22,097 bases of DNA, from NCBI GenBank assembly GCA_025786725.1, contig JAHLTZ010000145.1, positions 1 to 22,097 on the forward strand, given 5' to 3'. Shown piece after piece: positions 1,221-21,974 of the stretch. The notes under the pieces are model-generated. The model made no database searches. It saw only the letters and a program-made list of their open reading frames with translations, and was not told the origin of the DNA. Numbering within the stretch: the first letter of the stretch is position 1; every line of letters begins with the position of its first letter. The stretch is from Syncephalis fuscata. Its lineage: Eukaryota > Zoopagomycota > Zoopagomycetes > Zoopagales > Piptocephalidaceae. The translations under genes were made by a program, and so were the position numbers.

Positions 1221-1314
1221 ATAAAGCGTCCTATTGCTGTCGTCTGTACCATCGTCGTGGCTTTTGTGGCCAATATAGCCATGGCAGATGCTAAGCCAAT
1301 GCTAGTTCGTCGTG
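1221..1314 (+). pseudogene. Candidate signal-peptide exon with ATA where ATG is expected
   Basis: Read from 1221, the frame gives ATA, then Lys-Arg-Pro, then a hydrophobic run of about 18 residues rich in Val, Ile and Ala, then an Ala-Met-Ala/Asp-Ala step that looks like a signal-peptidase site, then KPMLVRR. At base 1314 it reaches a GTAGGT splice donor. The n-region, h-region and cleavage-site order is textbook for a secreted protein. The codon where initiation is expected is ATA, in the context AAC ATA AAG, and I found no in-frame ATG just upstream. Either the start codon mutated and the gene is dead, or the start is non-AUG or lies in an unseen upstream exon. The donor is in register with the intron-like repeat array that follows, so the two probably belonged to one transcription unit. 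No homologue is recognised. Confidence 0.4.
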
Positions 1315-2104
1315 GTAGGTTGCAACTACGATGCTCAATTAATTAGTTACTCAATCAAATACTTTTTGTAATACCAAACTGAATTTGATAGCCTGTAAGT
1401 GATTTTATAAACTCCTTAAACATGCTAAATACATATCGCCCACTATACGTGTTTAGTAACTTATATTGATAGTTTGTAAGTAGCTCCATCTATTAATTAG
1501 TTATATAATAACCATATGCCATTCACCTTTTTGTGATTAATAATTTGTATTAATAAAGAGTAAGCAGCGTTGTATATTAATTTAATTATATACCAACAAT
1601 TTTGCATTTACTTTGCGTGCTCAATAATGTGCATTAATAGAGCGTAAGTAACGTTTTACATTAACTAATTATATACTAAATTTATGCTGTTTACTGTGTG
1701 TACTCAATAATATGTATTAATATTTTGTAAGTGGTGGTTTAGCTTAACTAACTATATGCTAAAATATTTCATGCACCATGTGTGCCAATGATTTGTATTA
1801 ATAGCAGGTAAGTGGCGATGTATAGTAATGGGCTATATATTAATCATGTTTCATGCGCTGTGTTTGTTCAATAGCCTGTATTAATAGGCGGTAAATAAGA
1901 TTGTATATTGATTAACTATCATTAGCTAATCCGATATTTGTACGTTGAATGGTTTTTATTGATAGATGGTAGGTGAGACTGCATATTAAGCTACTATGTT
2001 CTAATCATAAACCATGCATTGTGCGTTTTTAGTAAGATATTTTTATAGAATGTAAGTGGAGCTGTATGGAAATTGGATAAATGTTAATTATATATTATAC
2101 ATAG
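1315..2104 (+). repeat. Degenerate ~82-bp tandem array of intron-like units (left part)
   Basis: Units begin with a 5' splice-site consensus at 1315, 1395, 1476, 1560, 1644, 1727, 1808, 1891, 1969 and 2052, so spacings are 78-84 bp. Most end in TTAATAG or TTGATAG. That AG sits exactly three bases before the next GTAAGT, so each unit looks like one small intron plus a 3-base exon. The triplets between AG and GT are CCT, TTT, AGC, CAG, GCG, ATG and AAT. Two units have lost the AG (AA before 1557, AT before 1724). Branch-point-like CTAAT or CTAAC motifs lie mid-unit, as in real introns of this window. Units are diverged in sequence but keep length and splice signals. The last unit is cut at 2104 by the LTR element and resumes at 7531. 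Confidence 0.75.
2100..2104. repeat. Target-site duplication, left copy (CATAG)
   Basis: CATAG directly precedes the 5' LTR and is repeated directly after the 3' LTR at 7526-7530. A 5-bp duplication is normal for Ty3/gypsy integrases. It shows that the element integrated as a unit and has not recombined since. Confidence 0.9.
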
Positions 2105-2319
2105 TGTGGTATCAATCTTGGAAACGATGGTATTTAGGAGCGGAGCTCAAATAATTAATATAAATACTATCCAAGTTCATATAATTAATAAAGAACAGAC
2201 TTTCTTACGACTAATCTTCTTGCTACAAATATAAGTGGAGATATCACAATAATATTCAGTGTTTATTGATAGTTGTCACCTCGCTCTACCGTCCCCCCAA
2301 ATCCTCCACCAATACGACA
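2105..2319 (+). repeat. 5' LTR
   Basis: This 215-bp copy is the same length as the 3' LTR and I saw no difference from it on reading. It has TG...CA termini. An AT-rich TATA-like stretch lies near 2151-2166 and an AATAAA polyadenylation signal at 2187-2192. The last bases contain CCTCCACCAAT, which is the reverse complement of the sequence just after the LTR. Confidence 0.95.
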
Positions 2320-2338
2320 ATTGGTGGAGGACCTGGGC
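2320..2338 (+). other. Primer-binding site and adjoining hairpin
   Basis: After the LTR terminal CA come two bases (AT) and then TGGTGGAGGACC. This is the usual placement of a site that pairs with a tRNA ending in CCA. The same bases are complementary to CCTCCACCAAT at the end of the LTR, giving an 11-bp perfect inverted repeat around a 6-base loop. The primer could therefore be a tRNA, or the RNA itself as in Tf1-type elements. I could not name a tRNA. Confidence 0.65.
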
Positions 2339-2465
2339 AACGTAAAACAATCGTTGCCCGTTCGTGCTCTCCCGTACCTAAAGACACTAATATTATTGAA
2401 TACCTTCCACTTGACTCGATCTAATTTTATCTAATAATACCGCTAATATCTCGTCATACATCCAA

Positions 2466-3818
2466 ATGTCTACTAACGAAAGACTAAGGCCATTAACACG
2501 CGCTGCGGCAGCCATCGCCTTACCTATTGATGAACAGGATGAGGTTGATGATCGATCGAATGTATCACAGAACAATCAACCCGAAGTACCAGTTCCAACG
2601 ACCCCGGAACAGGCACCCACATCAGTACCATCCAGTACTGCAACAGTGATCCAATTGATCACAGAAAGTTTTGTCAATACATTGGTACAAAATGCCGGCT
2701 CATTATCGACCACAGACAGTGCGCAAATGGCCATCGCGTTAAACTACACACTGCAAAAGTTAGGCCATAATCAAATTGCTACCTTACCTTCAATTACCCC
2801 TGGCCCTGGGTACACCGTACAAACGCCCGGCACTATTCTGCCGACAGTTGTCCCAACCCATGAAGTCACATCCTCTGCGCCCATAGCGGAATTCAACAAT
2901 CTAACGGATACTCCCAGTCGTATTCCCAAATCGACTACCTTCGAATCGATAGCTGACAGTGAATCCACTGATAGCGTATCAGTAATACTACAAAACGATA
3001 CTCCGCCGGTGAAAAAAATTACACCAGCAGCAAAATTACCCAAGATGGATATCGAAAGGTTAGACGATAAGGACGACCCGTTAGAATGGTTAAACAGCTT
3101 TCAGATGATCGCTGGACTAGCGAAATGGGATGAGCCAACAAAATGCGGTCGCTTATTTTACGGATTACGTGGCCGTGAGAGTGTTTGGTGCCTTCAAAAC
3201 ACTCCGCGACTAGATGATTATCGTCCTGGACTATTCACACAGTTAGTAAGGGAATTGAAGACGAAATGGTGTTTAGGCGATCCCGAAGAAATGTTAATGA
3301 CCAAATTCCATCTGACTCGTTTACGTCCCAATGAGACCCTCCTCGCTTTCGCTGAGCGAGTAGAGAAGGCCGGTAGTAGCGCTGGTGCTGATACCGACGC
3401 CATTTGGTACCAGATTAAATTGGGTACGAATGAATACGTCCGCGATAAACTACGGAACTACCAGATCCAAACATTGGATGATTTGCGATTCAGAGGAAAA
3501 AGTATACCAACAATTGACCCAAATAAGAAACAAATCAACCGATCGGATATCCATGCTGTTCTTAACGATGATTCAACCTTCTCTGACGAGCTAGTGTCTA
3601 GTTCAGTTCAGATGGTCTCTAATTTGAGTCAGCAACGTTGCCGCCCCAATAACAACAACGGACGGAAAAGCAAACAACAACAATCTGTTCCTCGTTATCC
3701 CTGCGCTATCTGCGATGTTCAAGGACACTTTACACACCAATGTCCAAAATTACCCGCTGCCCGAGCCTCTGCATTAGGTGGACTACCTAATGTAGACGCT
3801 AACGAATCGGAAAACTAA
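2466..3818 (+). CDS. gag: Gag structural protein of the Ty3/gypsy element
   Basis: This 450-residue protein would form the cytoplasmic virus-like particle and bind the element RNA. The first ~190 residues are Pro/Ser/Thr-rich and probably disordered. A helical retrotransposon-gag capsid-like region follows at roughly 200-330 (it contains DPLEWLNSF and FHLTRLRPNETLLAF). A Gln/Asn-rich linker leads to a single CCHC zinc knuckle, Cys413-x2-Cys416-x4-His421-x4-Cys426, typical of nucleocapsid. The start is the first ATG after a 146-base leader. The stop TAA at 3816 lies directly after the slippery sequence GGAAAAC, so most ribosomes should end here and a minority continue into pol. The assignment rests on the knuckle, position and partner frame. 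Confidence 0.93.
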   Translation: MSTNERLRPLTRAAAAIALPIDEQDEVDDRSNVSQNNQPEVPVPTTPEQAPTSVPSSTATVIQLITESFVNTLVQNAGSLSTTDSAQMAIALNYTLQKLGHNQIATLPSITPGPGYTVQTPGTILPTVVPTHEVTSSAPIAEFNNLTDTPSRIPKSTTFESIADSESTDSVSVILQNDTPPVKKITPAAKLPKMDIERLDDKDDPLEWLNSFQMIAGLAKWDEPTKCGRLFYGLRGRESVWCLQNTPRLDDYRPGLFTQLVRELKTKWCLGDPEEMLMTKFHLTRLRPNETLLAFAERVEKAGSSAGADTDAIWYQIKLGTNEYVRDKLRNYQIQTLDDLRFRGKSIPTIDPNKKQINRSDIHAVLNDDSTFSDELVSSSVQMVSNLSQQRCRPNNNNGRKSKQQQSVPRYPCAICDVQGHFTHQCPKLPAARASALGGLPNVDANESEN

Positions 3819-3876
3819 GTGGGGTGTCGACGTTTAAGGGTACCGACACCCCCGACCAATTAACAAATCCCTTGAA
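3809..3876 (+). promoter_or_regulatory. -1 ribosomal frameshift signal between gag and pol
   Basis: The Gag frame ends G GAA AAC TAA, and GGAAAAC (3809-3815) is a slippery heptamer in the correct phase. After a five-base spacer, GGGGTGTCG (3821-3829) is perfectly complementary to CGACACCCC (3844-3852), a 9-bp GC-rich stem with a 14-base loop. Loop bases 3833-3840 (TTTAAGGG) can also pair with CCCTTGAA at 3869-3876, with one G-U, which would form an H-type pseudoknot. The pol frame is open only from 3803, so the shift must occur in this 16-base overlap. The order slippery site, spacer, structure is the classic arrangement. Efficiency is unknown. Confidence 0.8.
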
Positions 3877-6800
3877 AACCGTATCCGTAGTCAATGCCAT
3901 TTCCGCAACGACATTACTACAGGATGGTACTATCAATGGACACGTAGTCTCTATGCTGATCGATACAGGTGCTGAAAGTACAGTTATTTCTAGTGCGGTT
4001 TGCACTAAAATAGGACTCATTTTGGGCCCACGTACCGATTCATTTGTACGATTAGCTGATGGCCGTCACGTTAACACTCGTGGACGCACTCCAGTGCGGA
4101 TTGAAATCGCTAACGTGGTACGGCAAGTCGATGCAGTTATACTAGACGCTGCCCCGTATAGCGTTCTACTTGGTATGGATTGGTTATCAGCCGCTGGTGC
4201 CAGCATTGATTGCGCAGCGGGCCGATTGTTCATTGATGGCCAATCCCATGATATAAAATTATCAAATAATCCCTCTCCTGGTATACATGTCGTATCCATG
4301 GTAGAGAAAGTCAGAAATAGTCGTTTACTTAGTAAGATTAAACAACACTTACTGAGACGGGGTGAACGACCCACTAAGAAGATTAATGATGCCGTGTTAG
4401 CATTGGCACTATCCCAATCGTCTAGTGAAGAATGGAATGAGTATACGCGTACAGCAAAACTCAATCAAGTGCTACAGGAATATTCAGATCTCTTTGCGGC
4501 GAATCCGAATAATCCTAATGCCACTACTAGAGTTCGCCACACAATCGATACAGGTGACTCACAACCAATTAATACACCCCCCTATCGTTCGGCTTATCGA
4601 CAGAGAGAAAAGATAACTGAAGCAATTGCTGACATGCTCAAGAATGGTATTATTGAACCATCTCGTAGTCCATGGTCTTCTCCTGTGGTACTAGTCGGTA
4701 AGAAGGATGGTGGTGAAAGATTTTGTGTAGATTATCGCAAAATCAACTCTATAACCAAGAAGGACTCATATCCAACTACTCGGATCGATGATGCCCTTGA
4801 CATGCTGACTGGCGCCTGTTGGTTTACTACTTTAGACCTTGCGTCAGGATATTGGCAAGTTAAGATGGCCGAGTCCGACAAAGAAAAGACAGCGTTTGTC
4901 ACTCACGCTGGTCTATATCAATTTAGTGTCATGCCATTCGGTTTATGCAATGCACCTGCGACTTTTCAACGATTGATGGATGAAGTATTGGCGGGATTGA
5001 AGTGGCATTCGTGTATTGTTTACCTAGATGACATTATCGTGTTTGGTAGAACGTTTGAAGAACACCTACAACGACTGAGTGCTGTATTTAAACGACTACG
5101 TGACGCTGGACTTCGTCTGAAGCGTAGTAAATGTCATTTCGGACAACAACAACTTGCTTATCTCGGTCATGTAGTTAGCGCTACTGGCGTTAAGCCCGAT
5201 CCAGATAAAGTGTCTGCAGTGCACAATTTCCCTGTTCCCACTGACGTCCGGGGATGTAAAAGCTTTCTAGGCTTAGCATCTTATTATCGCCGCTTTATTA
5301 ATCGATTCGCTGAAAGAGCCGAACCCATTCGTCGCCTAGAGAAGAAAGGTACACCTTTTGTATGGTCAAACGAACAACAAATCGCTTTTGATGATCTACG
5401 AACTGCTTTAACTAGTAATGACGTACTAGCTTACCCAACTCTATCTGAACCATTCCGAATTGAAACTGACGCATCTACTTACGGCCTTGGCGCTGTATTA
5501 TCACAACAAATCAATGATGTATGGCGGCCAATTGCATATGCTAGTAGAGCGTTGAATGATGCTCAAAAGAATTATTCAGCAACTGAATGTGAATGTATGG
5601 CTATCGTTTGGGCCATTGAAAAGTTTAGACCCTATGTTTATGGTAGCAACTTTACTGTAGTTACAGATCATTCTGCTTTGCGTTGGCTCATGTCTCGACC
5701 TAATCCAACCGGTAAACTTGGGCGATGGGCGTTAAAACTACAAGAGTACCGACCAACCATTGAATACCGACGTGGTACTGCAAATGCTAATGCTGATGCA
5801 TTATCGCGCGATCCTTTACCGTGGCATGAACTGGTCGAATTAGCAGAGCAAGACAAGGCAACTATGGTGATGCACATAGCCGAAATACCTGTACCCTTGT
5901 TACCCACTAATGAAGAATGGCTATATGCTCAACAAACTGAGGCTGGTACAGCAGATATTTATGCTTACTTGAAATATGGCGCTGAGTCTACGCTGATGAT
6001 GTCCGAACCTACTCGTCGCTCTTTACGTAAACGTGCCAAACGCTTTGGATTGGTAAATGACCGAATGAAAAGGAAAGTTATGAAAAACGGCATTGTGGTA
6101 GATTTACTAGATGTAGTACCCAACCAATATCGACCAGTAGTACTATATCATAGTCATGATCAGGAACTGGCTGGTCATTTGGGTATCACACGTACTCACC
6201 AGCGATTACGTCAAAACTATTGGTGGCAAAATATGCACAGTGACGTATGCGATTATGTAGCATCCTGTACTGTATGTCAGAAAGTGCGACGTATACACCA
6301 ACGATCCGGACTGTTACAGTCATTACCGGTGCCAGAAAAACCGTTCGACTTTATTGCCATTGATCTAATGGGACCTTTTACTGAATCCAATTATGGAAAT
6401 AAGTATGTGGCTGTATGTTGTGATTACACCACTCGATGGATAGAAGCAGCGGCCATTCCAGATGCGACGGCTGAGACGACCGTTCAGTTCCTAATGACTC
6501 ATATTATCGCTAGGCATGGTATGCCAAGAGTATTACTTACTGATGGTGGAACCAATTTCACATCTGGTTTGACTACTGGCATAGCACGTAGACTAGGCAT
6601 ACAACGACGGATCACTTCGGCTAGACGACCTCAAACTGATGGACTTGTAGAAAGATTTAATCATACACTTGCTTCTATGATAGCTAAGTTCACTAGTGAT
6701 TTTGAACAAGATTGGGATAAGTATTTGCCTTTACTACTATTCGCTTACAGAACGACAAGACAATCGTCGGCTGGACACTCACCTTTTCAACTATTGTTTG

Positions 6801-7360
6801 GACGAGAGGCTACCCAACCGTTGGAAGTCGCCGTCGACCCAGCTCCGACAATTCCGATCCGGTTCCATAAAAAGGTAGAAGAATATGAAGAATATGTCAC
6901 CGATCTGCAGTTGAGATTAAACGATGTAAGAGAAAGGGCCAGATTGATGATTGAAGCAGCCCAACGTCGACAATCTGCAAGATATAATAAAGGACGACGA
7001 AAGGAACCGTTTAAAGAAGGAGATTTAGTGTGGGTGGAAGAACAACTGTTAAAAGGAACAAAATTGAAAAAGATGAAAGAACGTATCAAAGGACCGTTTA
7101 AGGTGATTGACCAGACGTCGGCTGTGAATTATCTCCTAAAGGATTTAGAAACGCAAAGAACGTTTTCTGAACATGCCGATCGAATGGTGCCCTTACATAA
7201 CAGGCCCGCACACTTATTATTACCTGCAGTAGCGGTAAACCATTTATCAGTGCCCAACCTAAGTCAAGATGATATGTCAGCGGGACGCTTGACAACCAAA
7301 GAGGGAGTGTTGTGGTATCAATCTTGGAAACGATGGTATTTAGGAGCGGAGCTCAAATAA
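3815..7360 (+). CDS. pol: Pol polyprotein: protease, reverse transcriptase, RNase H, integrase
   Basis: About 1182 codons, made as Gag-Pol by -1 frameshifting; no ATG opens the frame. Numbering from 3815: aspartic protease with Asp50-Thr-Gly; reverse transcriptase with the LDLASGYWQVKM block and YLDD at 403-406; RNase H with Asp552 and the TDH triad near 617-619; integrase with an N-terminal zinc site (His781/His788, Cys818/Cys821) and catalytic Asp850, Asp910, Glu946, which is D,D-35-E spacing. A GPF module (KGPFKVIDQ) follows. All catalytic residues are present and there are no internal stops. The enzyme set would copy the RNA inside the particle and integrate the DNA in the nucleus. The frame ends 50 bases inside the 3' LTR, so the LTR start is coding in this copy. 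No chromodomain was found after the GPF module. Confidence 0.95.
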   Translation, partial: LSGVSTFKGTDTPDQLTNPLKTVSVVNAISATTLLQDGTINGHVVSMLIDTGAESTVISSAVCTKIGLILGPRTDSFVRLADGRHVNTRGRTPVRIEIANVVRQVDAVILDAAPYSVLLGMDWLSAAGASIDCAAGRLFIDGQSHDIKLSNNPSPGIHVVSMVEKVRNSRLLSKIKQHLLRRGERPTKKINDAVLALALSQSSSEEWNEYTRTAKLNQVLQEYSDLFAANPNNPNATTRVRHTIDTGDSQPINTPPYRSAYRQREKITEAIADMLKNGIIEPSRSPWSSPVVLVGKKDGGERFCVDYRKINSITKKDSYPTTRIDDALDMLTGACWFTTLDLASGYWQVKMAESDKEKTAFVTHAGLYQFSVMPFGLCNAPATFQRLMDEVLAGLKWHSCIVYLDDIIVFGRTFEEHLQRLSAVFKRLRDAGLRLKRSKCHFGQQQLAYLGHVVSATGVKPDPDKVSAVHNFPVPTDVRGCKSFLGLASYYRRFINRFAERAEPIRRLEKKGTPFVWSNEQQIAFDDLRTALTSNDVLAYPTLSEPFRIETDASTYGLGAVLSQQINDVWRPIAYASRALNDAQKNYSATECECMAIVWAIEKFRPYVYGSNFTVVTDHSALRWLMSRPNPTGKLGRWALKLQEYRPTIEYRRGTANANADALSRDPLPWHELVELAEQDKATMVMHIAEIPVPLLPTNEEWLYAQQTEAGTADIYAYLKYGAESTLMMSEPTRRSLRKRAKRFGLVNDRMKRKVMKNGIVVDLLDVVPNQYRPVVLYHSHDQELAGHLGITRTHQRLRQNYWWQNMHSDVCDYVASCTVCQKVRRIHQRSGLLQSLPVPEKPFDFIAIDLMGPFTESNYGNKYVAVCCDYTTRWIEAAAIPDATAETTVQFLMTHIIARHGMPRVLLTDGGTNFTSGLTTGIARRLGIQRRITSARRPQTDGLVERFNHTLASMIAKFTSDFEQDWDKYLPLLLFAYRTTRQSSAGHSPFQLLFGREATQPLEVAVDPAPTIPIRFHKKVEEYEEYVTDLQLRLNDVRERARLMIEAAQRRQSARYNKGRRKEPFKEGDLVWVEEQLLKGTKLKKMKERIKGPFKVIDQTSAVNYLLKDLETQRTFSEHADRMVPLHNRPAHLLLPAVAVNHLSVPNLSQDDMSAGRLTTKEGVLWYQSWKRWYLGAELK
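7298..7307 (+). other. Polypurine tract
   Basis: AAAGAGGGAG lies three bases before the 3' LTR and is the expected RNase H-resistant primer for plus-strand synthesis. It is also coding sequence, inside the 3' end of pol. Confidence 0.7.
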
Positions 7361-7525
7361 TTAATATAAATACTATCCAAGTTCATATAATTAATAAAGA
7401 ACAGACTTTCTTACGACTAATCTTCTTGCTACAAATATAAGTGGAGATATCACAATAATATTCAGTGTTTATTGATAGTTGTCACCTCGCTCTACCGTCC
7501 CCCCAAATCCTCCACCAATACGACA
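7311..7525 (+). repeat. 3' LTR
   Basis: 215 bp, no difference from the 5' LTR on reading. AATAAA at 7393-7398 is the probable polyadenylation signal of the element transcript. Its first 50 bases carry the end of pol. Confidence 0.95.
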
Positions 7526-7530
7526 CATAG
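7526..7530. repeat. Target-site duplication, right copy (CATAG)
   Basis: This matches the left copy at 2100-2104. Confidence 0.9.
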
Positions 7531-7725
7531 TATGTAGCTAGTAATTTAATGCTAACAAACAGTAAGTGATATTTCACACCATCTAATTATGTACTAATCA
7601 TATACTGTTACTGAACATTTTAATGGCATTTGCCGATAGATGGTGAGATAAACTGCATAATAGTTAGCTATATACTAATTAAACGAACTTTACTGTATAC
7701 ATCTATACCATGAAATAACTAGCAT
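7531..7725 (+). repeat. Intron-like tandem array (right part, after the LTR element)
   Basis: The interrupted unit ends here, with AA in place of AG before the triplet ACA at 7559-7561. The next unit starts GTAAGT at 7562 and ends GATAG at 7639, followed by triplet ATG. Another starts GTGAGA at 7643 and ends CTAG at 7722. After the triplet CAT (7723-7725) the donor position reads AATTTA, not GT, so the regular series stops. Both complete units contain ACTAAT, a plausible branch point. The continuation in phase across the 5.4-kb insertion confirms the left and right parts are one array. Confidence 0.7.
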
Positions 7726-8340
7726 AATTTAAAACATTAGCATGTATAATCATTAGGTTACCGTTTCCACTACTTTAGATATATATATGGCAAGAAGCAA
7801 AATCATTTGACAAATGCCGTTCAGTCCATTCACATATCAAGCTCCAGCCAATGCTCCGGGTTATTCATATTTCAATCAATGATATTATCATATTACAAAC
7901 AATTTTACAATTAGTCGTGTATATATAGCTATGTAAACTTGTAGTAATAAACATATAGTCATATCTATGCTTATGCTTAATTTGCATCCAATTATTGAGA
8001 AGCACTAGTCAGTAAATATATTAGCATTGTATTTGTACAAATACAATTTATTATGTCGACTTGCGTGATGCAGGGCAATGTTAATGATTAAGAATGCACA
8101 AACCAAAACTATTAAAATCCAAAGTAAGCCACATTAAAATGAAACTAAGGAATTAGAATTTAGCAACAATGTTAATACTCTATCGTTAATATTAACTTTA
8201 AAAACAGCCTTTTTATTAGCAACAGCCTTTCAGTAAATAATAAACATAAGATTAAACATAACATTATCGTAAAGCTTTTAATCTTCATTACTATTTGTTG
8301 ACATGCTTTTGTAAACAATTATAGCATTTCGCTTTTTTAA
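7726..8340. other. AT-rich intergenic DNA, includes the metH 3' end region
   Basis: No coding content was recognised. On the minus strand, AATAAA at 8217-8212 lies about 125 bases past the metH stop and is a plausible polyadenylation signal. The rest is AT-rich, with no structure I can interpret. Confidence 0.5.
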
Positions 8341-11300: not shown

Positions 11301-13929
11301 CATGGTACTATCAACGTCTATTAATAGACATGTCTATACTGTTTAATAAACGACTTACCAGAAACACGCTGTGCATTGCCTCTCGTACGACATCCTTACC
11401 ACGGAACGAGAATGAGACATTTGAAACACCACCGCTTACCTAGATCGATTCATTTGTAAACGTGGCTTTAATTCGTATCTATTTATACTTACTTTTGCAC
11501 CAGGGAGCTCTTGTTTAATTCTACGCGTTGCTTCGATGAATTCAACTGCATAGTTATCGTGCTCCTCTAAATAGACCATTAATATATAGACAAAAAGTAT
11601 AGACTAATTACTCACCCATGCCAGTACAGATGGTCAAAATATTTGGATCAAATACAATATCATTCGGATTGAATCCCACGACTTTGGTTAATAAATCATA
11701 CGATCGTTTACAAATCTCAAATTTACGATCCTTTTCTGCTGCTTGGCCTTGTTCATCAAACTAATACAGAACAAGATTTAGAATTGCTAAATAGCATAAT
11801 ACAAATTTACTCACAGCCATAACAATGACTGCAGCACCGTAACGTTTGACAAGACGTGCTTTGTGTAAAAAGTCTTCTTCACCTTCCTTCAAACTAATAC
11901 TATTAACAATGCATCGACCTTGATAACATTTGAGGCCCGCTTCAATAACATCGAAGTTGGACGAATCGATCATTAAAGGAACCTATAATATTGGTTAGCG
12001 ACATCATAGTATCACTAATAGTAATATTGGTGTTTTAATCATTACCTTGGCCACATCCGGTTCAGAAACAATTAAATTAACAAATTTTGCCATGGCCGTC
12101 ATACCGTCCAGCATACCATCATCCAAATTAACATCTTAATTATAACAGTAATATAATTAATATAACATAGATGACAAAATGCCACTAATATACTTACCAA
12201 CAATCTGGGCACCATTCTCCACTTGAAGTCGAGCAATAGCCAGACCTTCGTCGTACTGATTATCTCGAATATGTCGTGCAAACTTACGTGATCCTGAAAC
12301 ATTGCATCTATAGCCATATAGTCAATGTTGCCATCTATCTATGTAGGATTGGTCATATTTACCTTTCGCCTACATTCACAAAGTTGGTACGTTCGTCGAT
12401 TGACAATGGCTCCAGACCCGATAACAACATTTTATTTAATGCTTCATTGGCGGGCGGCACTCGTGGCTTATACGGCAGGCATGCGTCGACAACAGCCTTG
12501 ATATGTTTCGGCGTAGTGCCGCAACAGCCGCCTACAATATTAACAAGGCCACTTTTGGCAAATTCAGCTACCTGTTGTGCCATACTTTCCGGTCTATACT
12601 CATTTAGTGCATGTTTAACCATTAGTATAAAATGTATAGACTGTGCTGCTATTAAATTATTACTTACAATTGGTCATATTCACCAAATGTGTTAGGTAGG
12701 CCGGCATTTGGATAACATACAACATAGGACGAAGTAAAGTTGGCAATATTTTGAATAAACGGTCTCATTTGATCGGCGCCAAGAGCACAGTTAAGACCAA
12801 TGGCTAGTGGACTGGCATGGGAGACACTAATAACAAAAGCTTCTCCTGTTTGGCCAGACAGTGTTCTAATCGTAGATATTGGTTAGTATATACATACATA
12901 TATATATATTAGTATAATCAATCGCTTCTTATTACTAACCGTCCACTTTGATCAACAATAGTACCAGAAATAAAGATAGGAACCCGTTCATAGCCGTCTT
13001 CATCGTCAAAAATCGAATCAATGGCAAAAAGAGCGGCTTTTGCATTAAGTGTATCAAAAATTGTTTCTACAAGCAAAATATCCGCTCCACCATCAAGTAA
13101 TCCACGTGTTTGTTCTTTGTACGCATCAACCAATTCGTCAAATGTAACATTACGATATGCAGGATTTTCGACCGATGGTGAAATAGAAGCCGTACTATAA
13201 TGACTCATTAGCAGTCTATTCGGTCAGTTCAGCTTAGTACGCACCGATTGGTTGGACCTATAGATGGTGTTGATAGGCAGACCATCGTTGTTATGCAACG
13301 GCCAACAATGTATTGCTGTACTTTAACTTACCTATAGCACCGCATACATAACGCGGTTTATCCGGCTGTTCCTTAGTGACCTCCTCACAGGCTTGTCGGG
13401 CCAATTCAGCAGCTACTTTGTTAAGTTCGTAGGCCAAAGGTTCTAGGCCATAATCAGCTTGGGCAATACATGTCGATGAAAAAGTGTTTGTTTCGACAAA
13501 ATCTGCGCCAGCCAATAGGTATTCCTTATGGATATTAACAATGGCATCTGGTTTAGTAAGTACAAGTAAATCGTTATTGCCCTTTAAATCCTTGGGATGA
13601 TCAGTAAAACGTGTGCCTATAATAATAATAATAGTGTAAATTTAATAATGTTAAGTAAATCGACTATATTGAAATCAAAAATTATTCACCTCTAAAGTCG
13701 TCCTCGTTTAAGTTTAGCGTCTGTATCTGCGTGCCCATAGCACCTTTTATCATATTGTGTTATTTTATCATATACTGTTTTTTATGACGGCGGCCAACTT
13801 ACCATCTAGAAACAGTATACGCTCTTTCAACGCCGACGCGATATAGTCTAGATAGTAGCTGGAATTAACATGTAATTCCGCTTAACCATAGCAGTAGCTA
13901 CCTTTCAAAGGAGGTCTTACACTTGACAT
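8341..13929 (-). CDS. metH: Cobalamin-dependent methionine synthase
   Basis: Transfers a methyl group from 5-methyltetrahydrofolate through enzyme-bound cobalamin to homocysteine, giving methionine in the cytosol. The spliced model is 3744 nt, 1247 residues (E. coli MetH about 1227, human MTR about 1265). Domains in order: homocysteine-binding with zinc ligands Cys246 (GLNCALGA) and Cys308-Cys309 (GGCCGTTP); folate-binding (NVGER through [13 protein letters not shown]); cobalamin-binding with Asp768-Val-His770-Asp-Ile-Gly773, VGLSGL and IGGATT; and the AdoMet-binding reactivation domain ending with Arg1155-x3-Gly-Tyr1160. All cofactor residues are present, so the enzyme should be active if cobalamin is obtained. 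The start is the ATG at 13929 because the homologous N-terminus then continues in frame, although the first intron needs a less usual GTGTAA donor. It diverges from the kinase gene. Many fungi use only the B12-independent enzyme, so presence here points to an early-diverging lineage. Confidence 0.97.
8341..13929 (-). other. metH: Exon map of metH: 32 exons, 31 introns
   Basis: Exons in transcription order (plus-strand coordinates): 13923-13929, 13803-13847, 13690-13743, 13332-13616, 13245-13257, 12940-13194, 12668-12865, 12363-12593, 12198-12307, 12046-12134, 11815-11982, 11616-11760, 11493-11566, 11359-11439, 11008-11307, 10825-10949, 10667-10767, 10589-10618, 10467-10516, 10147-10406, 10000-10093, 9821-9937, 9641-9770, 9487-9588, 9415-9440, 9307-9359, 9234-9249, 8954-9184, 8820-8885, 8742-8754, 8487-8677, 8341-8424. 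The sum is divisible by three and the family sequence reads through every junction. Introns are 46-75 nt. Micro-exons measure 7, 13, 30, 26, 16 and 13 nt. The weakest calls are the first intron and the acceptors of exons 8 and 9, where several AGs are possible and phase decided. Confidence 0.85.
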
Positions 13930-15942: not shown

Positions 15943-18266
15943 ATGCCTAGCTCTCGACAAACATTTGCAGTCCCCGGAAGCTTTTTATTCCTTCCACAGG
16001 ATAAGCGTCGCGCGTACAATTCTCATCATGAGCAAGATACCAAGAGACAATTGTTAACAACAACCGCCTTGTTGGCAAAAGGGGCTAGCAATGTTGACGA
16101 TACCCCGAAGCATCATCACATATCGAATGTTCCCCTTGAGCAAAACTATAAACTATTGACCGAGATTGGCAAAGGAGCGTTTGGAAAAGTATACCGCGGT
16201 ATTCATCTTGCTACAAAAGATGAAGTGGCAATCAAGGTTATTGAACATAAAAATCTAAAAACCGCTCGACAACGTCGTAATGTTGAACGGGAAGTACGCA
16301 TTATGAGCTTGCTACACCATCCAAACATTATACCAGTGCGTGAGGTAATTATCGTACCCGGCCGCTACACTGTAGTCATGAACCAAGCACGCGGTGGTGA
16401 ATTATTCGAGCATATTAGCAAGTCTCGCCGCTTAAGCGAGTCCTCTTCACGCCGATACTTTCGACAGATTGTATCTGCGTTACATTATTGCCATGAGGTA
16501 AGTTATTTATGCAAAGAAGAAAAATACAATTTCTTCTAGTAGCACACATGTACTAATACGTGTGATGTACAGCATTCTATTATTCACCGAGATTTAAAAC
16601 CGGAAAATATATTGCTTGATGAGACACGCAAACGTGCTTTTATCATTGATTTTGGTTTTAGCAACACTTATCGTGCAGACGGTGTCATCAACACGTTCTG
16701 CGGTTCTCCATCCTATGCATCGCCCGAAATGCTTCGCGGGGTACCATATATTGGACCTGAAGTAGATATCTGGAGTTTGGGTGTCATTCTCTATGTGATG
16801 CTGACTGGTAATCTGCCTTTTTCTGCAAAAGAAGGTAAACAACTCTGTGCTCAAGTCTCGCTCGGTCAATTCCGCATTCCCGACTATGTCTCGGCGAGTA
16901 AGTTGGCAAGCCGTTACTACCTGCATAGCCATTCAAGCATGCTAACATGTGATATTTAGGTGCAGCGGATTTATTGAGAAGAATGCTTAATGTGGATTCA
17001 TACAAACGCGCTACCATGCAAGAAATCATTAATCATACTTGGACAATGGAAGGCTACTCACATCCCGTAACGCGTATCCATAAAAACCGACCGTGCCTCG
17101 TGACAGATCCTAATGAGGAAAGTATTCAGCAACTTGTATCCTATGGATATAAACGCGAAGATATAATCAAGTATCTACGTGATACACGAATAGTCAGTCA
17201 TCCAATTATAAGTTTATATCATCTTTGTGAAGATGGCCGATTACGCAGAGAGATTGCTGCTCGTCGTACCGAGCTTGAAAAGAAAAAGCTTATTTACCAT
17301 GGCCGCCGTTCCTACTCGTTGGTTGGACAGTCGAATTTCTTCAATACCAGCATCGAAGGAACAGTGCCAATAGAGCAATATGACCCCACATGCCACATGC
17401 CATCACCACTGGCCATCGAGGACTATTTGGCACGTGCAACTGATAAGTCAATTAGTGGTCAATTAGCGGTCAAACGGCAATCGACAGCACCGGCCAAAAT
17501 GCCCCATACTGTAGCTGATACGATAGCCGATATGACTGTTTGCGGGTTATGTCACAATGTTGATGGTGATTGTGACTGTTTTGTCGTCGAATCAACATCA
17601 GACTCGACTCATCCACGGATATCCGAAGAAGATCGTGAACGATTCTACACACCTGAATTACCACCGGCCGATGATAGTGGATGTGCCAGCAGTGCCGGTC
17701 GAGCATCAAATCATAGCGCTCTTTTGGCTCTTGAAAGCATTAAAGACGGCCATTCACTGCCGAATAAAAGTGTTTCACTGATACATGATTACTGTAGAGC
17801 TTCGTCAGGCATGGCATCACCTACCGATGCTACCTTTGGCTCTGAGATTGAATCAGCTCAATATTTGCCACAAAAAGAGTACAGGGCCCGCTTTAGAAAT
17901 ATACTCAATAGAAAGACGGCGGTGACCACGACAACGACGCCGCGGCTTGGCTCATCAGCATCTTCAATCGTTAATGCAAATAGATTGCCTGCCACTGTTC
18001 AAACAAATCCACCATTATACGATTCTCATAAATTTACATGGAAGAAGAATGCCCAACACTCCAATGGTACAAATGTACGGCAATTCATGGGCCAATGCCA
18101 GTTATTAGTCGTTTATCGTAAATTATATCGCAAAATGGCTCGTTGCGTTCGACGTAAACGTAGTTGTAACAGCGCAACTCCTGATTCTTACGTATCAGCT
18201 CCTCCTATTGCACCAATCACATTTCCACATACACACATCACAGCTGCCAAGCGAAAGGCTGTATAA
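15943..18266 (+). CDS. CAMK-like serine/threonine protein kinase
   Basis: Three exons (15943-16497, 16573-16897, 16960-18266) give 728 residues; the frame closes exactly with introns of 75 and 62 nt. The kinase domain starts near residue 70: glycine loop GKGAFGKV at 76-83, VAIK Lys98, HRDLKPEN with catalytic Asp192, DFG at 211-213, then CGSPSYASPEM in the activation segment. All catalytic residues are present. This activation segment is typical of the AMPK/Snf1-related (CAMKL) group. A segment starting near DPNEESIQQLVSYGYKREDI resembles the UBA-like helices found after the kinase domain in that group. The long C-terminus is Ser/Thr-rich and ends in a strongly basic stretch (KLYRKMARCVRRKR), possibly membrane-binding. 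The specific orthologue (Kin4-, Kin1- or Snf1-like) is not resolved. It lies between the two methionine genes, with nothing to show a link. Confidence 0.93.
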
Positions 18267-20535: not shown

Positions 20536-20885
20536 TTTTACAGGCATAATGGGCAGGCCTAGTAACACAAATCATGCTACCCTTGTCCACTAGAATCATA
20601 GGATACCCAATCGCCTGGCGTAAATGAATTCTAATGTAGTACAATTTAGTAGAGCATGTTTGTTCACACAATACTATTCTCGCTTCTGTTTCATCATTTT
20701 GTTTCCAATTGATTATTATTGAACATCTGTGTTGCCCATACTATCTTCATTCATACACGCACATATACATATACATATATATAGTGCTACGTTTATCCAT
20801 TTCAAATAAATTATCATAACATCAAATCGCACTCATTACTCGCTATTTATCTATATTGCAACGACTCTATTTAACTGCCTCCATT
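20536..20885 (+). promoter_or_regulatory. Spacer and promoter of the GH8 gene
   Basis: No gene is recognised. A CA/TA microsatellite-like tract (about 20755-20785) contains TATATATA and is followed by a pyrimidine-rich leader before the ATG, the same pattern as other leaders in the window. The frame upstream of the ATG is open only back to a TAA at 20817 and has no ATG, so I see no signal-peptide exon directly attached. Confidence 0.45.
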
Positions 20886-21974
20886 ATGTCTACCGCTAGC
20901 CGATACACTACCTGGCGTCAACGCTACCTTCGCGACGAACCAAGTCTCGGCTCAGGACAGCCGTGCCGATATGTCGCCTACAACACAGATGGCTCCAACG
21001 GTGATGCCATCACTACTAGTGAATCTTCTGGCTATGGTTTGCTAATTTCCGTTCTAAATAATGCTCGCGAAGACTTTGATGCTATTCTGCGTTTTACCGA
21101 CCACTTCATGAATAGCCGTGACCTACTCGGCTGGCAGCAGAGACGTGAACAAGGTTCAGGCCGCATACTTCCCGGTAACAACGGCGGTGAAAACTCGGCT
21201 ACCGATGGCGATCTTGACTGTGTAGCTGCACTATGGATGGCCCACAAACGATGGGGCAACAACCAGTACGCCGACCGTGCACGCAGGTGGGGCAATGCCA
21301 TCCTAAACCACTGTATTAATTCAGATACTGGTGCTATTGTTCTTGGCGACTGGGCCAACTTCAATAAATGGGATGATAAGCGATGGCTTACCCGTCCATC
21401 TGACTATGTTCTCGGTCATTTAACCATGTTTTCACGCAAGCATACCGATCGAAGCGATGCCTGGAACCGTGTCATTAACGCTACCCGTTCCATCATGAAT
21501 AGCCAGTACAAGCTTAATCCAAATACTGGTTTGGTTGCTGATTTCTTGAAATGGGATTCAGGTCGTAACATGTACATGCCAGCGAATGGCTTTGTTCAGG
21601 AATCATCGCACGATGGCGACTTTAACTGGAACGCATGCCGAGTTCCATGGCGTCTAGCCCAGTACTACTTCTATACTAGGGACTCTTCTGTCTTGCCACA
21701 CTTGCAAGCACTTGTCAGATTCTTTGAAGCTAGGTGCAGCAACGGCTACGTACTTGCCGGCTACCAGCTAAACGGTCAAGGATATGTCAACTATACAAAC
21801 TTGGCATTCCTTGCTCCAGCTGCTTACTGCCTCAAAATCATGAACAGCCCGTTGGCCAACACTGTCTTTGGTCAAATGGACCAAGCTTATCCTAGCGCTA
21901 CTTACTACGGTGAAACTATTTCTCTCATTACTCTATTGCAAGCCGAACGAAGCTCGCTTGACTTGATGAACTAA
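20886..21974 (+). CDS. Glycoside hydrolase family 8 (chitosanase/lichenase-like)
   Basis: An intronless 362-residue protein of the (alpha/alpha)6 barrel type that cleaves beta-1,4 links in glucans, xylans or chitosan. Family blocks seen: TSESSGYG with Glu46 as likely acid; NSATDGDLDCVAALWMA with Asp107; TRPSDYVLGHLTMF; and WNACRVPWR. At the position where cellulase-type members carry the base Asp (YDAxR), there is Asn249, while Glu239 lies ten residues before in a loop. That pattern recalls the chitosanase/lichenase subfamily (GH8b), so I favour that activity, from memory of the family. I chose ATG 20886 because no earlier in-frame ATG exists. No signal peptide is visible, which is odd for an enzyme normally secreted. 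GH8 is overwhelmingly bacterial, and the lack of introns among intron-rich neighbours suggests horizontal acquisition. Confidence 0.9.
   Translation: MSTASRYTTWRQRYLRDEPSLGSGQPCRYVAYNTDGSNGDAITTSESSGYGLLISVLNNAREDFDAILRFTDHFMNSRDLLGWQQRREQGSGRILPGNNGGENSATDGDLDCVAALWMAHKRWGNNQYADRARRWGNAILNHCINSDTGAIVLGDWANFNKWDDKRWLTRPSDYVLGHLTMFSRKHTDRSDAWNRVINATRSIMNSQYKLNPNTGLVADFLKWDSGRNMYMPANGFVQESSHDGDFNWNACRVPWRLAQYYFYTRDSSVLPHLQALVRFFEARCSNGYVLAGYQLNGQGYVNYTNLAFLAPAAYCLKIMNSPLANTVFGQMDQAYPSATYYGETISLITLLQAERSSLDLMN

Follow-up and report, generated by a model that had tools for sequence, protein, structure and literature searches.

Syncephalis fuscata is a mycoparasite, and its genome appears to contain a family of genes in which the mature part of a secreted peptide is written almost entirely in exons of one codon each. 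The window analysed here is the whole of a 22,097-nucleotide stretch from this species (Zoopagales in the NCBI taxonomy; assembly GCA_025786725.1, contig JAHLTZ010000145.1, positions 1 to 22,097 of the forward strand), in which a row of intron-like units follows a leader exon. We assign a probability of about 0.9 to the reading that the window holds a dead member of a one-codon micro-exon gene family for small, secreted, hypervariable pre-pro-peptides. The reading is built on sequence comparison and is carried by a three-base exon rule, a frame that stays open across the introns, agreement with intronless paralogs in part of the family, and conservation of leaders and splice signals. We infer efficient splicing with mostly all exons included.

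In the 30 parsed arrays, exon 1 is 94-97 bases long and specifies a signal peptide and a propeptide that in most cases closes with RR; 15-52 introns, each near 80 bases, come after it. The propeptide is predicted to be cut, presumably by a Kex2-type protease, and the mature peptide would be spelled by 14-51 consecutive exons in phase 1, nearly all of one codon. The predicted introns have GTAAGT as a strong donor, CTAAY as a motif resembling a branch point, and TTAATAG as acceptor; they would be followed by a terminal exon in which, in most arrays, the frame should end.

The spacing between one acceptor and the next donor is three bases in nearly all cases. The motif pair TTAATAG-N3-GTAAGTG has 933 exact matches genome-wide and its reversed control none, which puts the arrangement described in a first-pass annotation of this DNA far beyond chance; spacings of 0-2 yield 4 matches (control 1), and the 27 spacings of 4-30, taken jointly, yield 36 (control 17). 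When arrays were parsed with a uniform prior, every exon length from 1 to 45 having equal weight, 425 of 446 internal exons were three bases long (19 arrays, the dead copy L009 on contig C90 included). A second parse, with a prior favouring multiples of three and with GC donors allowed, returned three bases for 767 of 789 internal exons in 30 arrays, a count that is partly circular, since this parse favours 3-base exons and AG-N3-GT matches served to train its splice-site models, whereas the motif-pair counts are not; 787 of the 789 were multiples of three, and 787 of 819 introns were 60-92 bases long. L009 entered both parses and the stop count of the uniform-prior one, and was left out of the 30-array counts, the shuffle scoring, the tree, and the rate data; the window copy was left out of the script-parsed arrays. 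Two loci stayed unparsed, namely L017, which runs off its contig end and has no leader in the stretch, and L050, whose leader donor was not recognised. The arrays accordingly consist of many consecutive, very short, in-frame exons, the architecture that characterizes micro-exon genes.

The leader ends in phase 1; each codon thus joins the final base of a triplet, across an intron, to the first two bases of the triplet that follows. Read in this way, the 30 spliced arrays contain a single stop in 745 codons, located at the array end of L028, whereas shuffling the triplet order within arrays (5000 trials) gives a mean of 29.5 stops, with 16 as the lowest value. In this count, exons not three bases long were masked and reading was taken up again behind them, so that stops arising from the 2-base exon of L011 are uncounted. 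The frame starting one base earlier holds 60 stops in 715 codons vs 58.5 in shuffles. The uniform-prior parse with L009 included gives 2/405 against 35/390. As stops, the triplets themselves occur in 0 of 767 cases, a figure that shuffling cannot test. At the third codon position, which is the middle base of a triplet, T is found in 57% of array codons and in 40% of those of intronless members, the skew being alike. In 22 of the 30 arrays, the frame closes with a stop that lies within the terminal exon or, for L028, shortly ahead of it; the eight without such a stop (L010, L011, L024, L026, L045, L046, L047, and L053) have ends that are truncated, misparsed, or broken.

These counts bear on the proposal that the arrays are a minisatellite-like tandem repeat within one long intron, with triplets that are not exons and splice-like motifs inherited by duplication. 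The units are tandem and related (65-70% identity in most between-array matches), their number varies, and neither the window copy nor its twin on C90 is coding. However, stops are depleted about 30-fold in the exon-1 frame and not in the frame one base earlier, so that the lack of constraint typical of a satellite or minisatellite is not what is seen; the spacing is constant at three although intron lengths vary, mostly 63-91; donors and acceptors are kept above the intron interior in the pair L018/L016; and the spliced triplets of 11 of the 30 arrays resemble intronless paralogs beyond shuffles. The first-pass annotation had named an ordinary satellite elsewhere, devoid of leader exons, as a finding that would count against its reading; of the 21 array loci analysed at the outset, among them the window, 20 have a leader, and L017, with none in the stretch examined, runs off a contig end. 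A non-coding satellite is rejected on the frame and intronless-paralog results, and the minisatellite proposal is left with very little probability.

Many family members have the same leader and then pass directly into a continuous mature peptide, often with C-x2-C-x3-C near its start. From about 30 distinct intronless genes, 10 were compared upstream and 13 downstream. On the 5′ side, they share homologous flanks with array genes, the longest such stretch being about 1.3 kb, with array L026 (for L042-L053, arrays of the L026 subfamily, the comparison covered about 100 bases upstream). On the other side, an alignment begins within the first 5 bases of an array's predicted terminal exon in 12 of the 13 genes, the exception being L041, in which the frame continues beyond that point. 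Spliced arrays were also scored against 29 intronless mature peptides, identical ones merged, with 300 triplet shuffles as control. Eleven of the 30 beat nearly all shuffles, 0-9 of 300 being as good (L026, L042, L043, L044, L045, L046, L047, L049, L051, L052, and L053, among which L043/L044 and L046/L047 are near copies). The clearest match is that of L052 with L072, scoring 94 against a shuffle maximum of 50, while L016 and L023 are borderline, with 22 of 300 shuffles as good. The positive matches appear to tie together one peptide family that is written both as continuous open reading frames (ORFs) and as one-codon exons, and they may be regarded as the nearest thing to proof of splicing in this analysis. 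A by-eye likeness between L012 and the intronless P0005/L089 was dropped, the score being no better than shuffles.

The fate of the triplets can be judged from the same data. In recursive splicing (cf. PMC6224609), a donor is regenerated after each step, and the AG-N3-GT arrangement would do this; the first-pass annotation had listed recursive steps within one long intron. On that reading, the triplets would mostly be missing from the mRNA. Discarded triplets, however, would leave codons across introns unselected, in conflict with the coding constraint seen on them, and the intronless copies carry the mature peptide in the interval between leader and terminal exon. On the open frame and the intronless paralogs together, recursive splicing with discarded triplets is rejected as highly improbable, and stepwise splicing with a codon retained each time is plausible. 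A further reading is combinatorial splicing, through which one gene would give many peptide variants by codon skipping. With 787 of 789 exons in multiples of three, skipping would preserve the frame, but the fully included product is the one that matches intronless paralogs in the 11 arrays, which suggests full inclusion as the main product there. Full inclusion, as predicted from the arrays, is thus supported by the paralog matches, and combinatorial splicing seems rather unlikely as an account of the family.

A tree built from 59 rows calls for 10 changes between the array state and the intronless one (7-10 in bootstraps, at least 2 being forced by strong branches). Because intron gain at every codon would be far harder, we infer that the intronless copies probably arise via spliced RNA. 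PMC8831610 draws the same conclusion for APC11, ascribing its intronless copies to intron loss mediated by reverse transcriptase.

The extent of the family was estimated from several searches. A query made of the window array and part of the long terminal repeat (LTR) matched the assembly it comes from (28.95 Mb) 134 times, in most cases with 65-70% identity. The spliced array product matched one annotated protein, P0001 of Syncephalis fuscata, which in turn matches contigs C236 and C273 at 100% and, searched against the genome, produced 150 scored matches from 313 candidates. Of these, 105 end at or before residue 38, near the leader end, and 45 extend further; among the loci read, leader-only matches are mostly arrays and longer ones mostly intronless, with exceptions such as L076 and L089. 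By this count, the assembly would contain roughly 150 family loci or more, of which some may be second haplotypes. The leader exon proposed at 1221-1314 in the window is confirmed by these results, since related leaders stand in array loci and a related full-length member accounts for the 150 scored matches. By inspection, leaders appear to consist of a hydrophobic stretch, then D/N-A and a short propeptide; RR lies near residues 30-31 in most, exceptions including arrays L024 and L028 and intronless L034, L056, L064, and L072. The leaders of the window and L009 are without ATG.

A single profile search retrieved 11 proteins, all from Syncephalis fuscata, and thus no relative outside this species. 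It likewise gave no sign of homology to the proteins of schistosome micro-exon genes (MEGs), which were not compared directly. In Pfam, none of six family members had a hit above the cut-off, sub-threshold similarities being obtained for three and nothing for the other three. A query of concatenated mature peptides found no match in the genome, a result that is uninformative without a positive control. Five of the NCBI gene models (P0002, P0003, P0006, P0007, and P0008) start with the family leader, to which a short, unrelated tail is attached; they may be mis-spliced models of array genes, the locus sequence having been compared for P0002 only.

Codons and introns change at different rates. 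In the moderately diverged pair L018/L016, changes affect 1/94 positions of exon 1, 3/168 of donors, and 9/194 of acceptors, as against 253/1816 in intron interiors, and the 3-base exons change more, at 19/78. In nearly identical array copies, the codons have hardly changed. At 2-5% intron divergence, the codon differs in 3 of 41 unit pairs between arrays and in 11 of 20 pairs within the same array, a comparison in which the pairs are non-independent and units may be misaligned. Within arrays, codons differ far more than the flanking introns, with all three codon positions affected, which suggests fast codon change after unit duplication. Diversifying selection, homogenisation of introns, and exchange of codons are candidate causes. 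Positive selection is not claimed: besides the non-independence of pairs and the possible misalignment of units, the wobble position varies in diverged units about as much as the other two positions, a pattern that simple selection on amino acids would not lead one to expect. As an instance of unit duplication, a five-unit block in L024 (AAT CCG AAT CTA CTC) is tandemly duplicated and gives a repeated pentapeptide, SESTQ, in the spliced product.

Besides the circular count, the masked stops, the non-independent unit pairs, and the variable wobble position, several other points weigh against the reading as a one-codon exon family. Most broadly, 19 of the 30 arrays have no convincing intronless counterpart, most of them resembling other subfamilies; L048, a relative of L043 and L044, fails the comparison, 209 of 300 shuffles doing as well, and for several arrays without a match, e.g., L012, L021, L022, and L027, a wrong frame outscores the spliced one. 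L011 and L053 have one 2-base exon each, and a 1-base deletion lies near the leader start in L019 and L023. No micro-exon model can be recognised among the 11 annotated proteins, and P0002, apparently the gene model of array L029, reads into intron 2.

Acceptor and donor sites only three bases apart cannot be occupied simultaneously. Exons of three bases leave no room for recognition from both sides at the same time, so that splicing would probably be stepwise, one intron being removed and one codon kept, with the next donor then exposed. The standard spliceosome probably suffices, since an ordinary-looking intron of a kinase gene in the window, located by eye near 16,500, is alike in signals and size, with GTAAGT, CTAAT, and a length of 75 bases. 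Duplication or loss of a unit would add or remove one residue with the frame intact, and the peptides are likely to act extracellularly, perhaps on host fungi. A more tentative proposal, which we hold to be possible rather than probable, is that the arrays form a system for diversifying peptides codon by codon, in which intron-plus-codon cassettes recombine, their duplication, loss, exchange, and possibly skipping would generate in-frame variants quickly, and spliced copies would occasionally be rewritten in intronless form. It is prompted by near-duplicate cassettes that differ in the codon far more than in the introns and by the approximately 10 state changes on the tree.

Several features of array introns were recorded in addition. 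GC-AG introns with a GCAAGT donor were placed by the parses, one or two each, in L010, L011, L013, L024, L042-L044, L046-L049, and L051-L053. Long single introns are found in L012 (443 bases), L014 (474), L024 (354), and L029 (500). A repeated element with the common start GAAGAGCTTGTGAGCCCC lies within single array introns of L012, L024, and L029, the case of L014 being known only as a long intron. The element may be a short interspersed nuclear element (SINE), because its end in L012 and L029 resembles a tRNA box B.

Schistosome MEGs provide the nearest named architecture. They are described in PMC10526429 as having exons of 3-81 bp, introns of up to 5 kb, and secreted products. The likeness lies in secreted proteins, here predicted, and in many short exons per gene, whereas in Syncephalis fuscata nearly all exons of the mature part are three bases long, 14-51 of them stand consecutively, the introns are uniform at about 80 bases, and the organism is a fungus. 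Isolated exons of one codon or less are also spliced elsewhere, as reported for a 3-bp exon of Drosophila homothorax (PMC7392893) and for 1-nt exons of plant APC11 and VPS55 (PMC8831610); those are single tiny exons in ordinary genes, whereas here a whole mature peptide in dozens of genes would be encoded in this way. Likewise, reports on fungal introner-like and stwintron families describe repeated introns (PMC8469720, PMC9024468), that is, many sequence-similar spliceosomal introns per fungal genome, but in the array loci read here the similar introns stand in tandem, within one peptide family, and at one-codon spacing. No report of one-codon exon arrays emerged from a literature search that covered partial texts and mostly excluded subscription papers.

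Up to about 50 one-codon exons in a row strain the textbook view of exon recognition, and the arrays offer a natural setting in which to test the smallest size and the largest number of exons that a spliceosome can join sequentially and without error. The architecture also lets the length and sequence of a peptide shift by one residue through unit duplication. Such genes may hide in other genomes, because public gene models misread them, as at least one (P0002) does here.

The copy in the window, all of whose parts lie on the + strand, is a decayed version of this design. A remnant of exon 1 at 1221..1314, identified by tblastn with two family leaders and by side-by-side comparison of leaders, encodes a signal peptide and a propeptide ending in RR and closes with a phase-1 donor, its start codon being lost (ATA). 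As the first-pass annotation stated, 12 units begin with GT, at 1315, 1395, 1476, 1560, 1644, 1727, 1808, 1891, 1969, 2052, 7562, and 7643, and nine have AG three bases before the next donor position, the intervening triplets being CCT, TTT, AGC, CAG, GCG, ATG, AAT, ATG, and CAT; every listed site is present. Eight of these triplets stand as 3-base exons, but the ninth, CAT at 7741, is better read as the start of a terminal exon, because no good donor follows it. Intron 1 (GTAGGT...TTGATAG, 1315..1391) is followed by CCT (1392..1394), an intron unit (1395..1472), and TTT (1473..1475). Two units with donors at 1476 and 1560 then run over 1476..1640, the acceptor before 1560 having lost its AG, up to AGC (1641..1643), and two more with donors at 1644 and 1727 occupy 1644..1804, with the AG lost before 1727, up to CAG (1805..1807). 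Single intron units at 1808..1887, 1891..1965, and 1969..2048 are separated by GCG (1888..1890) and ATG (1966..1968) and lead to AAT (2049..2051).

The next unit, beginning at 2052..2104, is cut by an LTR retrotransposon (2105..7525) that lies inside the array and is absent from the C90 copy. Its LTRs, at 2105-2319 and 7311-7525, are 215 bases each, it has two long ORFs (2466-3818 and 3824-7360), and CATAG flanks it on both sides (2100-2104 and 7526-7530). The remainder of the cut unit and one more intron unit, whose donor is at 7562 and before which the third acceptor AG is lost, extend over 7526..7639; ATG (7640..7642) and the last intron (7643..7740) come after them. A putative terminal exon and 3′ region, assigned on the model of terminal exons in other copies, reach from 7741 to AATAAA at 7946-7951 (7741..7951).

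The C90 copy (L009), without the LTR element, is 99.7% identical to that of the window (contig C52), and the two may be haplotypes or a recent duplication. Both have ATA at the leader start where relatives have ATG, and a stop at the third codon after the leader is read in the C90 copy. Judged from the ATA start, the early stop, and the LTR insertion, the window copy is a pseudogene, and its three lost acceptors fit such decay. The dead-gene alternative of the first-pass annotation is thus the correct one for this copy, while its suggestion of a secreted-protein gene with one-codon exons fails here and holds for the gene family, on the spacing, the open frame, and, in part of the family, the intronless paralogs.

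Two further coding features lie in the rest of the window. Glycosyl hydrolase family 8 is commoner in bacteria; a domain of this family is found in an ORF at 20856-21974 (Pfam E 2e-26). A piece of a homocysteine S-methyltransferase domain at 12918-13208 is perhaps part of a B12-dependent methionine synthase.

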